Assembly: GCA_030432735.1 (NCBI GenBank)
Contig: JAUIMK010000007.1
Location: forward strand, 1 to 39,709
Direction of reading: 5' to 3'
Source: a bacterium
GTDB lineage: Bacteria > Myxococcota_A > UBA9160 > UBA4427
Length of the DNA stretch: 39,709 nucleotides
Every line of letters begins with the position of its first letter. Within the stretch, counting starts at the first letter, position 1. Position numbers and translations under genes: made by a program. Below the pieces are notes generated by a model. It worked only from the letters and a program-made list of their open reading frames with translations. It made no database searches and was not told the origin of the DNA. Below, piece by piece: positions 10,637-16,233 of the stretch.

Positions 10637-10782
10637 GACACGCGGCGTCGCGGATCGGGCCGTCCCCCGCCGCCGCCACGCGGTCGCGGATCGCGGCATC
10701 CACGCCGGCTGCCACGCGGTCGCGGATCGCGGCATCCACGCCGGCTGCCACGCGGTCGCGGATCGCGGCGTCCACGCGACCG
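10637..10782. repeat. 36-bp tandem repeat in intergenic DNA
   Basis: Two identical 36-base units lie at 10675-10710 and 10711-10746. A third copy at 10747-10782 diverges near its end, and a degenerate partial copy at 10637-10665 precedes them. Each unit contains the near-palindromic core CGCGGATCGCGG. The array lies between the cyclase stop (10628) and the aminotransferase start (10836) and runs up to a TATAGT that could be a -10 element. Because 36 is a multiple of three, minus-strand frames give a repeated peptide, but nothing suggests it is coding. There are no unique spacers, so this is not a CRISPR array. Confidence 0.9.
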
Positions 10783-12045: not shown

Positions 12046-13332
12046 TCAGCCGACGCGCCGACGCATGAACGCGTAGACGAGGGCGCCGACGGCGACGGTC
12101 AGAAGGCCGAACGCCGCCTCCACCGGCTCGCGCAGCACGAGGAAGGCACTGCTTCCGACGGTCGCCCCGATGAAGGCGAGCGGCACGAAGGGCGCCCCCC
12201 AGACCGGCGGCCCGGCCAGGCGGCGCACCGACGGGAGGAAGAGCGTCGCGACGGTCGCCGCCGCCGAGAGCCCGAGCATGAAGCCGGCGTAGTCGAGGAG
12301 CGCTCGCAGATCCGCGAGGAGATAGGCGGCGAGCGAGAGCACGACCTGCAGCCCGATCGCCGGGCGCGGGCTCTCGTCTCCGCCGGCGAGCACCGAGGGA
12401 AGCAGCCCGTCCGCCGCCATCTGCGCGTAGACCCGGGGTCCGACCATCACCATGGCCGAGATCGAGGTGAAGAGTCCGAGCGTGACGATGCCGGCGAGGG
12501 CCGCGCGCGCCCACCGGCCACCGAGCGCCTCCGCCGCGACCGCGCCCACGTCCGCGCGCCCCGCCAACGATTCGACCGGGGCCGACGACACGAAGACGGC
12601 GTTCAGCGACACGTAGAGGAGCGAGACGGCGAGGGTGCCGAGCACGAGCGCGCGCGGGAGGGTCCACGCGGGCCGATCGAGCTCCCCGGCGACGTAGACC
12701 GCCGCGTTCCAGCCCGAGTAGGCGAAGGAGATCCAGACGAGGGTCACGGCGAAGGCCGGGAGCCTGAACTCCGCTGACGACGCGACCTCGACCGCGTCCG
12801 ATGCCGGTCGCGCGAGGGTCCACGCGCCGAGCGCGAGGAAGAGCAGGATGGCGATCCCCTTCGCCAGCACGGCGCCGCTCTGCAGCCGGAGGCCGCCCGA
12901 GCGACTCGCCGCGTGCAGGAGCCCGCAGGCCACGATCGCGAACGCGCCGAGACCGGGCAGCGTGAGATCGCCGCCCAGCGCCGCGGCCAGATAGGCCTCG
13001 AGGCCATGGGCCGCGACCGCGATCGGGGCGGTGAAGCCGGCGAAGAGCGAGACCCACCCGGCGAGGAAGCCGAGCAGCGGATGCACCGCTCGCGAGAGGA
13101 AGAGATATTCGCCGCCATTGCCCGGAAGGCGCGCAGCGATCCCCGCGTAGGAGAGCGCGCCGCAGAGCGCGATCGCGCCCCCGACGACCCACGCGAGGAT
13201 CACCTGCTCCGGTGACCCGAGATCCGCGAGGGCGAAGCCCGAGGTCGTGAAGGCCCCGACTCCGATCATGTTGCCGGCGACGAGGAGCGTCGCCGCGCGC
13301 AGGCCGATGCCGTCGGGGCGATCCGTCTTCAT
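12046..13332 (-). CDS. APC-superfamily amino acid permease
   Basis: A 428-residue inner-membrane transporter with about 12 hydrophobic segments. The first helix holds G-N-M-I-G-V-G-A-F, the broken-helix substrate motif of APC permeases, and a second early block, G-A-L-S-Y-A-G-I-A-A-R-L-P, matches the family's helix 2 region. It most likely exchanges or imports amino acids or amines; the ligand is unknown. Its ATG (13332-13330) overlaps the stop of the upstream TetR gene by two bases (ATGA), so translation is probably coupled. It is the last gene of a three-gene minus-strand operon. Confidence 0.88.
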   Translation of the reverse strand: MKTDRPDGIGLRAATLLVAGNMIGVGAFTTSGFALADLGSPEQVILAWVVGGAIALCGALSYAGIAARLPGNGGEYLFLSRAVHPLLGFLAGWVSLFAGFTAPIAVAAHGLEAYLAAALGGDLTLPGLGAFAIVACGLLHAASRSGGLRLQSGAVLAKGIAILLFLALGAWTLARPASDAVEVASSAEFRLPAFAVTLVWISFAYSGWNAAVYVAGELDRPAWTLPRALVLGTLAVSLLYVSLNAVFVSSAPVESLAGRADVGAVAAEALGGRWARAALAGIVTLGLFTSISAMVMVGPRVYAQMAADGLLPSVLAGGDESPRPAIGLQVVLSLAAYLLADLRALLDYAGFMLGLSAAATVATLFLPSVRRLAGPPVWGAPFVPLAFIGATVGSSAFLVLREPVEAAFGLLTVAVGALVYAFMRRRVG

Positions 13333-14027
13333 GCCAGCAGACCCCGCACGGCGAAGTCGATCGCGTTCGTCCGGGCGAGCCCCGGGTCGTAGCGCTCGGG
13401 GGCGCGGTCCCAGTGGATGTGGACGGCCCAGGTCGAGCAGATCTCGATCACCATCCGAGCAGCGAGGCGTACGTCCTCGAAGTCGCGGAAGTCGCCCGAC
13501 GCAGTACGGTGTCGGAGATAGGCCTCCATCGCGATGCGCACGTCCTCGCGGCCGTGCGTCTGCCAGAGTCCCGCGATCTCCGGATGGTCCATGCAGCGAT
13601 CGAGCAGCTTGATCCCGAATCGATTCGCGTACATCAGATCGAAGAGCTCCTCGACGATCCCCCGCGCCTCGGTCGCCACGTCGACGCGCCCCGTCGCCGC
13701 CGTGGCCGTCATCGCCGCCTCGAGCCGCGGCAGGCGCACCTGCTGCCCGAAGGTCTCGGCGACGCGTCGCGCGATCTCGCCCGGCGGTGGCGTCGGCAGC
13801 GGCAGGGGATCCGGGAGCGGGATCGGCTCGGTCGCGTCCGCGAACGCCAGACAGAGCGCGAAGAGCGCGTCCTTGCTCTCGACGTAGCCGTAGAGGGTTC
13901 CCTTCGCGACCCCGACCGCGTCCGCGACGTCCGCCATCTGGGTCCGGCGATAGCCGGCCTCGATGAAGACCCCGGTCGCGCCGCGCACGAGATCGTCGAA
14001 GCGATCATCGGGAATCCGTCGCGCCAC
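13329..14027 (-). CDS. TetR-family regulator, middle gene of operon
   Basis: A 232-residue TetR-type protein starting with GTG at 14027. The DNA-binding domain is at about residues 6-52, with F-I-E-A-G-Y-R-R-T-Q-M-A-D-V-A-D-A and the recognition helix K-G-T-L-Y-G-Y-V-E-S-K-D-A-L-F. The first base of the GTG is the last base of the preceding methyltransferase stop, and its own stop overlaps the permease start, so all three genes look coupled. The frame runs open further upstream, but only over methyltransferase coding sequence. It probably controls this operon through the dyad at 14754-14772 in response to a substrate or product of the methyltransferase or permease. Confidence 0.88.
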   Translation of the reverse strand: MARRIPDDRFDDLVRGATGVFIEAGYRRTQMADVADAVGVAKGTLYGYVESKDALFALCLAFADATEPIPLPDPLPLPTPPPGEIARRVAETFGQQVRLPRLEAAMTATAATGRVDVATEARGIVEELFDLMYANRFGIKLLDRCMDHPEIAGLWQTHGREDVRIAMEAYLRHRTASGDFRDFEDVRLAARMVIEICSTWAVHIHWDRAPERYDPGLARTNAIDFAVRGLLA

Positions 14028-14701
14028 TAGCGACTCGCGGCGACGGCGCCCGAGGTCGCGTCGTCGGAAACGAAGACCTGGAAGCTCTGCGCGGGCAGGA
14101 AGTCGTAGGCCGCCGTGCGCGTGAAGCCGGCCTCGCGCATCTCGCTCACGATGAGCGCGGGCTCCGTCCAATGGCCCGACGTCTGGAACCAGGAGATCGG
14201 CGCGGGGGCGTCGGGCCGATCGTCGAGGTGCACGACCCGTGCGCCCGGCGAGAGGTCCACACGCAGCCGGTCGAAATAGGCGACGCGATCCTCGATGTGG
14301 TGATAGGTCAGGCAGGTCATCGCGACGTCGATCTCTCCGTCCGGCAGCCGCGGATCGTCGTAGGCACCGTACACGACCTCGACGTTGCCGTACCCCTTGC
14401 GCTCCACCCGATCTTCGAGCGCAGCGACGAGGCCGGGGTCGACCTCGACGGCGTAGACCCGGCCCTCGGGACCGACCGCTTCCGAGAGCCGGGCGAGCCA
14501 GTAGCCGGTTCCGGCGCCGATCTCGGCGACGCGGTCACCGGGCCGGAGAGCGAGCGCCTCCATCACGCGCCCGGGGTGTTGCCAGCCGTCGCGGCCGGAC
14601 GTCATCACCTTTCCGACGTCGACCTTCGCGAGGCCTCCGCTGCAGCCGACCGAGGTCAGCGTGATGGTGAGCCAGAGGACGAAGGGAAGGAGCTTGATCA
14701 T
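14027..14701 (-). CDS. Exported SAM-dependent methyltransferase-like lipoprotein
   Basis: A 224-residue class I methyltransferase fold preceded by a signal peptide. The first 20 residues form a hydrophobic segment ending in S-V-G-C, a good lipobox with C20. The SAM-binding glycine motif V-A-E-I-G-A-G-T-G-Y-W spans 58-68, followed by the acidic strand V-Y-A-V-E-V-D-P. SAM is cytoplasmic, so an exported methyltransferase is puzzling; the protein may be anchored at the membrane, bind another ligand, or use an internal start. It opens an operon with TetR and permease genes. The ATG at 14701 follows a weak GGAGA-type ribosome site. Confidence 0.8.
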   Translation of the reverse strand: MIKLLPFVLWLTITLTSVGCSGGLAKVDVGKVMTSGRDGWQHPGRVMEALALRPGDRVAEIGAGTGYWLARLSEAVGPEGRVYAVEVDPGLVAALEDRVERKGYGNVEVVYGAYDDPRLPDGEIDVAMTCLTYHHIEDRVAYFDRLRVDLSPGARVVHLDDRPDAPAPISWFQTSGHWTEPALIVSEMREAGFTRTAAYDFLPAQSFQVFVSDDATSGAVAASR

Positions 14702-15024
14702 GACGGGTCTCCGTTTCGGATGGGCGCCGACGGGCCGGCGGCGCGCCTTTATTTAACCGACTCATTCGGTCATTTACAAGGCCCGGCCGAAGCATGGGCC
14801 GTCTCGCGTCGACGCACGCCGCCAGCCGACCGACACGGATTGTCGAAGGACCTGCATCCAGTGACCGGTCGAGTCGCGGAGAGAACCGCAACTCTGCTCG
14901 CAACCTGCTGAAAAGACTGCGGTCCCGGGTTGGCACGAACGCTGCTCTACCGGGTCGGAGCCGCCCGGCGAGATCCAGGAACGAGGCGGCCCGATCCCCG
15001 ACCCGATCCCCGAGGAGAAGACCG
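14702..15024. other. Divergent intergenic region
   Basis: This 323-base gap separates the methyltransferase operon (-) from the membrane hydroxylase gene (+). The AT-rich part around 14748-14777 holds the dyad described separately and probably the operon promoter. The right half is GC-rich; the plus frame of the hydroxylase stays open through it, but it lacks family similarity and a good ribosome site. I see no other gene or RNA. Confidence 0.55.
14754..14772. promoter_or_regulatory. Candidate TetR operator of the methyltransferase operon
   Basis: TAACCGA-CTCAT-TCGGTCA is a 19-base dyad whose 7-base arms match at six positions. It lies in the most AT-rich part of the divergent region, about 50 bases upstream of the methyltransferase start. 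This is the size and place expected for a TetR-family operator, and the operon encodes such a regulator. Confidence 0.5.
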
Positions 15025-16233
15025 ATGGCCCCGACCGCCCGCCCGTCCCGAACCGAAGACGTCCCCCTCCGCCTCGGCGAAGGCCGCATCAGCGGCGTCG
15101 CGTCCATCCTCCTCGGCGCCTGCGCCTTCGTCGCCGTGCTCTGCTTCCACTTCCCCGAGTACCTGACCACCCCGGAGCTCCGCGCCGGCTATCCCCACGC
15201 GCTGCTTCGAGACCTCCTCGTCGGCGGGATGGTCCTCGCCGTGGCCTGCGGCGCGGTCTCGGTCTTCCACTCCCGCTCGAAGCGCCTGGGTCTCACCGGG
15301 ATCGGTCTCGCCCTGGCGGCCCAGTGGCTTGGCGGCGCGAACATCGAGATCGAACACAGGGCGACGCCGCTCGTGACCTTCGGCTTCGACTGGCTCGTAC
15401 TGGCGCTCCTCGCCAACACGATCGTCTTCGTGTTCGTCGAACGCGTCTGGCCCCACGACCCGGACCAGCTCACGCTCCGCAAGGAGTGGAAGCTCGACCT
15501 GCTCTACTACGCGTTCAACCACGTGATGATCAGCGTGATCCTCCTCTGCACGACGTTCTTCTCGGAGGGGCTCTTCGGCTGGGCCGTCCACGACGGCGTG
15601 CAGGACGCGGTGCGCAGCCTCCCGGTCCTCGCGCAGTTCGTTCTGGTGCTCTTCGTCGCCGACTTCGCCCAGTACTGGGGCCACCGACTCATGCACGAGA
15701 ACCGCTTCCTCTGGAACTTCCACGCCGTTCACCACTGCCCGGCGCGAATGGACTGGCTCGCGGGCTCCCGCATCCACTTCGCGGAGGTGCTCTTCACGCG
15801 CTCGACGGTGCTGCTGCCGATCTTCCTGCTGGGCTTCTCGGAGGCGGCGATCAACGCCTACGTGGTCTGGGTCGGGATCCAGGGCGTGCTGATCCACTCG
15901 AATACGGGCCTGCGCGTAGGCTTCCTCGAGTACGTCTTCACGACGCCCCACTACCACCACTGGCACCACGCAGCCGACCCGGAGGCGATCGACAAGAACT
16001 ACGCCGCGAACCTGCCGGTCCTCGACATGCTCTTCGGCACGTACCACGCCGGCGCGCGGGACCGCTGGCCCGCGACCTACGGCGTCGTCGGCAAGCCCCT
16101 GCCCCACGGATTCGTGAGCCAGCACCTCTATCCGTTCATCGCGAAGCCCGCGCGCCCCGCGGAGGAGAACGTTCGATCCGCGGCGCATCGCGCGGCGACG
16201 CCGAGCGCGGAGGCTCCGCTCGCCGCCCGCTAG
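15025..16233 (+). CDS. Fatty acid hydroxylase/sterol desaturase superfamily membrane protein
   Basis: A 402-residue integral membrane di-iron enzyme. All three histidine clusters are present: H220-x3-H224 (H-R-L-M-H), H233-x2-H236-H237 (H-A-V-H-H), and H309-Y-H-H-W-H-H (309-315). Several membrane segments precede the first cluster. Members hydroxylate or desaturate sterols, fatty acids or alkyl-glycerol lipids; which one applies here is not clear. The ATG at 15025 has GAGGAG close upstream; an upstream extension in frame is GC-rich and featureless. The last 30 residues are a low-complexity Ala/Glu tail. Its TAG stop lies in the same CTAG as the stop of the convergent exchanger gene. Confidence 0.9.
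   Translation: MAPTARPSRTEDVPLRLGEGRISGVASILLGACAFVAVLCFHFPEYLTTPELRAGYPHALLRDLLVGGMVLAVACGAVSVFHSRSKRLGLTGIGLALAAQWLGGANIEIEHRATPLVTFGFDWLVLALLANTIVFVFVERVWPHDPDQLTLRKEWKLDLLYYAFNHVMISVILLCTTFFSEGLFGWAVHDGVQDAVRSLPVLAQFVLVLFVADFAQYWGHRLMHENRFLWNFHAVHHCPARMDWLAGSRIHFAEVLFTRSTVLLPIFLLGFSEAAINAYVVWVGIQGVLIHSNTGLRVGFLEYVFTTPHYHHWHHAADPEAIDKNYAANLPVLDMLFGTYHAGARDRWPATYGVVGKPLPHGFVSQHLYPFIAKPARPAEENVRSAAHRAATPSAEAPLAAR

Follow-up and report, generated by a model that had tools for sequence, protein, structure and literature searches.

A candidate TetR-controlled operon encoding a lipoprotein-type SAM-methyltransferase in a bacterium of the Myxococcota_A

Introduction

The chemistry of S-adenosylmethionine (SAM) is normally intracellular. 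Among the published work that we found, the O-methyltransferase of Anaplasma phagocytophilum comes closest to a SAM methyltransferase of the periplasm; it has been proposed to act there on the outer-membrane protein Msp4 (PMC4636158). Here we analyze a 39,709-nucleotide stretch of DNA (GenBank assembly GCA_030432735.1, contig JAUIMK010000007.1, hereafter the window), which is contig C458 of an incomplete 5.05-Mb genome (544 contigs, 91% complete), and in it an operon of three genes. The first, which we call lipoMT, encodes a lipoprotein signal followed by a class I SAM-methyltransferase domain, the second a TetR-family regulator (hereafter TetR) and the third an APC-type permease. LipoMT resembles the Anaplasma enzyme in being a SAM methyltransferase that may act outside the cytoplasm; the latter was predicted to be non-cytoplasmic without a signal peptide (PMC4636158), whereas the lipoMT family has a conserved lipobox signal. 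The combination of an invariant SAM site with a conserved lipoprotein signal raises the questions of where SAM is met and what is methylated.

Other described systems share single properties with this locus. In fold family and SAM motifs lipoMT is like the UbiE/Methyltransf_11/25-type class I methyltransferases, whose Pfam cut-offs it passes and among which its closest solved relative (3dh0) is found; it differs from them by the lipoprotein signal that precedes the domain. NCBIfam matched lipoMT with 28 families, and of the 25 shown none attains its cut-off, so that no known substrate class applies. The next-best solved relatives, 5wp5 and 5wp4, as well as lipid-type gene neighbours, recall the phosphoethanolamine and ornithine-lipid N-methyltransferases (PMT, OlsG), but lipoMT scores only 20.8 bits against the NCBIfam equivalog cut-off of 350 for OlsG. 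PMT and OlsG enzymes use cytosolic SAM. With the TetR autoregulated operons the locus has in common a helix-turn-helix domain, an inverted repeat before the operon and a regulator gene inside it; the difference is that the product likely to be regulated here is an exported methyltransferase. Orthologous TetRs elsewhere adjoin a pyrroloquinoline quinone (PQQ) dehydrogenase or an acyltransferase instead of lipoMT. The prepilin peptidase PilD, an N-methyltransferase, likewise methylates an exported protein at the membrane, but it is an integral membrane protein and, according to its authors, takes SAM from the cytoplasmic side (PMC3584216).

In the literature searched, which leaves most subscription journals outside and was available in part, neither an exported methyltransferase lipoprotein nor an exported methyltransferase of a free-living bacterium was found described. 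Uncharacterised proteins of this kind are probably present in databases already under generic names. What is new here is the evidence of conservation, the lipoMT-TetR unit, the operator-like site and the interchangeable partners.

Results

Lipoprotein signal of lipoMT

The gene and its two diagnostic elements are located in the window as follows.

14027..14701, minus strand: lipoMT, 224 amino acids from an ATG start, class I SAM-methyltransferase domain behind a lipoprotein signal (open reading frame, Pfam, conserved family)
14642..14701, minus strand: signal segment of lipoMT, residues 1-20, with the lipobox Cys20 (Cys in 47/52 homologues)
14504..14524, minus strand: SAM motif I EIGAGTG, lipoMT residues 60-66 (D/E60, G62 and G66 in 52/52, G64 in 51/52)

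To compare this protein with its family, homologues were taken from relatives, where 31 of 60 genomes match at 1e-20, and from the phylum, where 64 of 140 match at 1e-22 (the genome of the window included in each case). The 50 matches listed for the relatives gave 35 loci, of which L029 and the two-piece L030 were dropped for too short an alignment, leaving 33. A scan of named contigs gave two more distant loci; L035 entered the family (34), while L036, a domain of a larger protein, was left out. Together with 18 phylum-level loci (L081-L098) the set comes to 52 homologues. A three-row alignment (A1) was rejected because its rows were too distant. Genes in the related loci were called by a GC-frame caller that miscalled some of them; those in L039 and L041, for example, were corrected. 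As controls, 332 other called open reading frames of at least 120 amino acids in the fetched neighbourhoods were used.

An N-terminal hydrophobic segment was observed in 51 of the 52 homologues, the exception (L087) being cut by a contig end, and a Cys at the end of this segment in 47. Within residues 2-36, Cys20 is the sole well-conserved position; the next column reaches 29/52. The lipobox of the window protein is LTSVGC, with Ser instead of the commonest Leu at −3, and, with the basic start and hydrophobic segment expected of a bacterial lipoprotein, it passes a PROSITE-like lipobox rule, as do 34 of the 52 homologues. The same rule is passed by 4, 7 or 12 of the 332 controls, depending on whether starts are taken as called, by a family-like choice or anywhere. 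Eight cytosolic-type methyltransferases encoded at these loci all fall short of the hydrophobicity of the family, and one (L072) has a Cys in the place searched. A looser measure was also applied: 169/332 controls have a hydrophobic segment within the first ~110 residues and 52/332 have segment plus Cys, and therefore this measure alone is not specific.

Given the segment in 51/52 and the Cys in 47/52 homologues, the signal is not an artefact of start choice, and export of lipoMT from the cytoplasm is supported by the sequences. Orthologues that start after the hydrophobic segment, which according to the earlier note would make lipoMT a plain cytoplasmic methyltransferase, were looked for among the 52 and none appeared, the one homologue lacking a segment being cut by its contig end. 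Both LspA and Lgt genes are present in the genome of the window. When the window was compared with genome G003, the ratio of non-synonymous to synonymous substitution rates (dN/dS) was 0.34 for the whole of lipoMT and 0.36 for residues 1-22 (5 synonymous and 6 non-synonymous differences); the signal region is evolving like the remainder of the gene. In 12 of the 18 phylum-level homologues the methyltransferase domain is separated from the lipobox Cys by a His-rich linker (at least 5 His), which may bind metal.

SAM site and fold

Pfam Methyltransf_25 matches lipoMT at 5.5e-13 (49.9 bits against a cut-off of 27, which is passed); the earlier note was right to see in the first gene a SAM-type fold with a lipobox. 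D/E60, G62, G66 and D/E86 are present in all 52 homologues and G64 in 51; these residues, which cover the glycine-rich motif I and the acidic residue after strand 2, were assigned as presumable SAM contacts from the known order of class I motifs. Other conserved residues are R37 (51/52), D125 (50), H134 and H135 (49), and Y133, Y67 and Q205 (47). With a profile of 40 members the closest solved structure was 3dh0 (2.2e-36), followed by two phosphobase N-methyltransferases, 5wp5 and 5wp4. A new, non-SAM role of the fold, as had been offered earlier, finds no support in the sequences, because the SAM-contact positions are essentially invariant.

The same genome carries a second, more distant lipoprotein-type methyltransferase (L002:1261-2013, G000:C436; 44% over the core). 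No TetR relative was found by script in its 2.9-kb locus.

The lipoMT-TetR unit

LipoMT, TetR and the permease form a minus-strand trio (14701-12046) whose ends overlap at stops and starts. The further elements of the operon are these.

14707..14712, minus strand: ribosome-binding site GGAGAC upstream of the lipoMT ATG (sequence; same site before the start codon in G003)
13329..14027, minus strand: TetR-family regulator with a GTG start (Pfam TetR_N 1.4e-12; an orthologue adjoins lipoMT in 10 intact loci including the window)
12046..13332, minus strand: APC-superfamily permease, ATG at 13332 (AA_permease_2 1.2e-43; adjacent in G001, G002, G003, G006 and G052)

The TetR GTG at 14027 has one base in common with the lipoMT stop (TAGTG), and the permease ATG at 13332 has two bases in common with the TetR stop (ATGA, a 4-base overlap). 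These overlaps are exactly those from which translation of the three genes together had been concluded, and co-translation is supported. In the window and in all seven relatives with an intact lipoMT-then-TetR order, the junction of the two genes abuts or overlaps by at most 4 bases; the 4-base overlap of TetR and permease was also found in G002, G003 and G006. The helix-turn-helix domain of TetR passes the Pfam TetR_N cut-off (47.6 bits against 24). The permease can be assigned to a wider family only: it meets AA_permease_2, while against the NCBIfam L-type amino acid transporter (2A0308) it scores 128 bits where the cut-off is 701.8.

Ten intact loci, the window included, have a TetR orthologue beside lipoMT. 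The order is lipoMT-then-TetR in eight of them (window, G003, G015, G012, G057, G037, G019, G025) and TetR-then-lipoMT in two (G011, G052). In a tree of the 52 lipoMTs the ten TetR-linked ones fall on one side of one branch (support 100/91), and thus the linkage probably arose once. Genomes G012, G057, G037 and G052 have further lipoMT matches, and in each only one copy adjoins the TetR orthologue.

The permease behaves differently. It adjoins the pair, or what remains of it, in five of the nine genomes searched from the genus of the window (window, G001, G002, G003, G006); no permease-lipoMT-TetR locus was found in the other four. Among the loci read, its sole occurrence outside this genus is in G052 (37% identical). 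The permease is mainly a genus-level addition; it is lipoMT and TetR that are conserved as a unit, rather than all three genes. The survey of the trio proposed earlier thus bears out its first two genes, in ten intact loci, and leaves the third mainly to the window genus. Other partners take part elsewhere. In G012 and G037 a cytosolic methyltransferase (MTc) and an MFS_2 transporter stand in front of lipoMT, and in G052 a rhodanese-like protein with a hydrophobic N-terminus (L046:7129-7572) lies between TetR and lipoMT. No close MTc orthologue was found in the genome of the window, the best match being 7.1e-9. In the 18 phylum-level loci, inspected by eye with flanks of at most 1.5 kb, there was no recurrent partner and no recurrent transporter.

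Operator-like site

The upstream regions of the lipoMT-TetR loci have in common a 19-bp inverted repeat, TGACYGANNNNNTCRGTYA. In the window it stands between two divergent genes.

14754..14772, no strand assigned: proposed TetR operator TGACCGA-ATGAG-TCGGTTA (minus-strand reading; the only exact match in the assembled genome)
15025..16233, plus strand: divergent FA_hydroxylase gene facing the operator (Pfam PF04116 1.4e-28; ribosome site and start)

The pattern was derived from these same loci, so that its presence there is not independent evidence and its rarity elsewhere is. At the intact lipoMT-TetR promoters it is exact in nine of ten, with one mismatch in G057; in G012 and G037 it precedes the entire operon of four genes. 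None of five lipoMT loci without TetR (L044, L047, L048, L050, L051; 300-450 bases searched) has it within two mismatches. Across 14 genomes chosen for holding TetR, 20 strand matches were counted, against 3 for the reversed control; the 20 correspond to 13 places, of which 11 precede the TetR loci described here. In the window, at most one mismatch being allowed, the two strand matches belong to one site, against a shuffle mean of 0.11, and 5 of 100 shuffles also gave at least two. TTGACT and TATA-like hexamers were seen by eye around the site in several related loci. G003 has a counterpart of the FA_hydroxylase gene at the equivalent position (90% identity across residues 1-380). The gene of the window may be a further TetR target under common control. 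Exact matches of the pattern away from the TetR locus were noted at G052:C15:107354-107372 and G003:C8:103626-103644.

Regions with TetR orthologues but without lipoMT

Eleven regions (L062-L072) in which a TetR orthologue occurs without lipoMT were read. An acyltransferase lies beside TetR in six of them (L062, L063, L065, L067, L068, L069), and it is fused to DUF2147 in all three that were scanned with Pfam (L065, L067, L069). A PQQ dehydrogenase was found in five; L068 has it as well as the acyltransferase, and L064 has neither. A fatty-acid hydroxylase relative is nearby in four (L063, L065, L067, L068) and a cytosolic methyltransferase is present in three. The operator-like site is exact in five (L062, L063, L066, L067, L069) and has one mismatch in L065 and L068. 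Because TetR travels with envelope and lipid-type enzymes, the substrate of lipoMT may, by this association, be placed in the envelope.

Discussion

Taken from the sequences, the reading that we prefer is that of a TetR-autorepressed operon that encodes an envelope-facing lipoprotein with an intact SAM-methyltransferase domain, the regulator itself and, within this genus, also an APC-type permease; the chances of its being right appear to us evenly balanced. TetR would occupy the 19-bp operator of the lipoMT promoter and leave it when a ligand binds. Sec would then export lipoMT, Lgt and LspA would lipidate it at Cys20, and the protein would stay attached to the envelope; there it might methylate an envelope component or an incoming small molecule with SAM arriving in the periplasm.

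Several observations weigh against this. No SAM exporter was identified, and the authors of the PilD work argue that SAM is cytoplasmic (PMC3584216). The strict lipobox rule is failed by 18 of the 52 homologues; the membrane segment of L022 and L027 lacks the Cys, no lipobox accompanies the signal-like segments of L031 and L035, and in one subclade without TetR linkage basic residues follow directly after the Cys. Basic residues just past a signal Cys disfavour Sec export. A single-sequence AlphaFold model of the window lipoMT (pLDDT 37.8) lent no structural support to the pocket. A sigma-70 promoter scan of 14650-15100 passed nothing. Beyond lipoMT, the operator-like site reaches only two mismatches in L070 and L071, and in the searched stretches of L064 and L072 it was not found within two. 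In addition, five of 15 lipoMT-TetR loci are broken (G001, G002, G006, G016, G022; L073, L075, L074, L061, L076, respectively).

The exported SAM fold might alternatively serve as a binding or scavenging lipoprotein rather than an enzyme, which beyond the inner membrane would capture SAM, S-adenosylhomocysteine (SAH) or a nucleoside or amino-acid ligand related to them and hand it to the neighbouring transporter, while TetR senses the imported ligand. Methyl transfer outside the cell would then no longer be needed, and transporters do recur as neighbours (APC in the window genus and G052, MFS_2 in G012 and G037). But no transporter recurs, by eye, in the 18 phylum-level loci read with flanks of at most 1.5 kb, and residues outside the SAM motifs that are possibly catalytic or substrate-binding are conserved (R37, Y133, H134, H135, Q205). 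We consider this unlikely. The suggestion of the earlier note that the fold binds the ligand handled by TetR and the permease finds no particular support in the loci read, where the permease accompanies the pair only in the window genus and in G052. The supply of SAM would also cease to be a problem if the segment anchored a cytosol-facing methyltransferase to the inner membrane, where a lipid head group would be modified with cytosolic SAM and the lipobox would be incidental. The two homologues with a Cys-less membrane segment, the basic residues of the one subclade, the phosphobase N-methyltransferases among the profile neighbours (5wp5, 5wp4) and the lipid-type genes that accompany the regulator (FA_hydroxylase, acyltransferase) are in its favour. 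An incidental lipobox is hard to reconcile with the Cys at the segment end being the single well-conserved position of residues 2-36, or with the His- or Pro-rich linkers that follow it in phylum-level members, linkers of a kind that exported lipoproteins carry after the Cys. A cytosol-facing anchor therefore seems to us unlikely too, and somewhat the less likely of these two.

The broken loci suggest a further alternative, that the locus is a decaying remnant which no longer serves a purpose in this genome. Each of them has lost, or carries out of frame, parts of lipoMT alone or of both lipoMT and TetR; the lipoMT of G016 is shorter but in phase, and an intact TetR still abuts it. The operator-like site is kept with one mismatch in G001, G006 and G016, and the stretches searched in G002 and G022 gave no match within two mismatches. 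Such copies may reflect either a dispensable function or, in some, assembly faults of draft genomes. In the window, on the other hand, all frames are intact, the operator-like site, ribosome site and overlaps are retained, and the dN/dS of 0.34 against G003 does not fit decay; a remnant is improbable here. The most speculative of our proposals, to which we give the least credence, extends the preferred reading to a periplasmic SAM economy in some bacteria, in which SAM would be moved out, for example by a permease of the type adjacent to lipoMT working as a SAM/SAH antiporter, and a conserved class of lipoprotein methyltransferases would use it to modify the envelope under TetR control.

Because the position of the candidate operator is known to the base and the assembled genome has a single copy of it, the induction of lipoMT, its location and its substrate are open to stepwise testing.

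Elsewhere in the window, a tandem repeat of 3.6 copies of a 36-bp unit was noted at 10647-10777, between the FHA-cyclase and aminotransferase genes.

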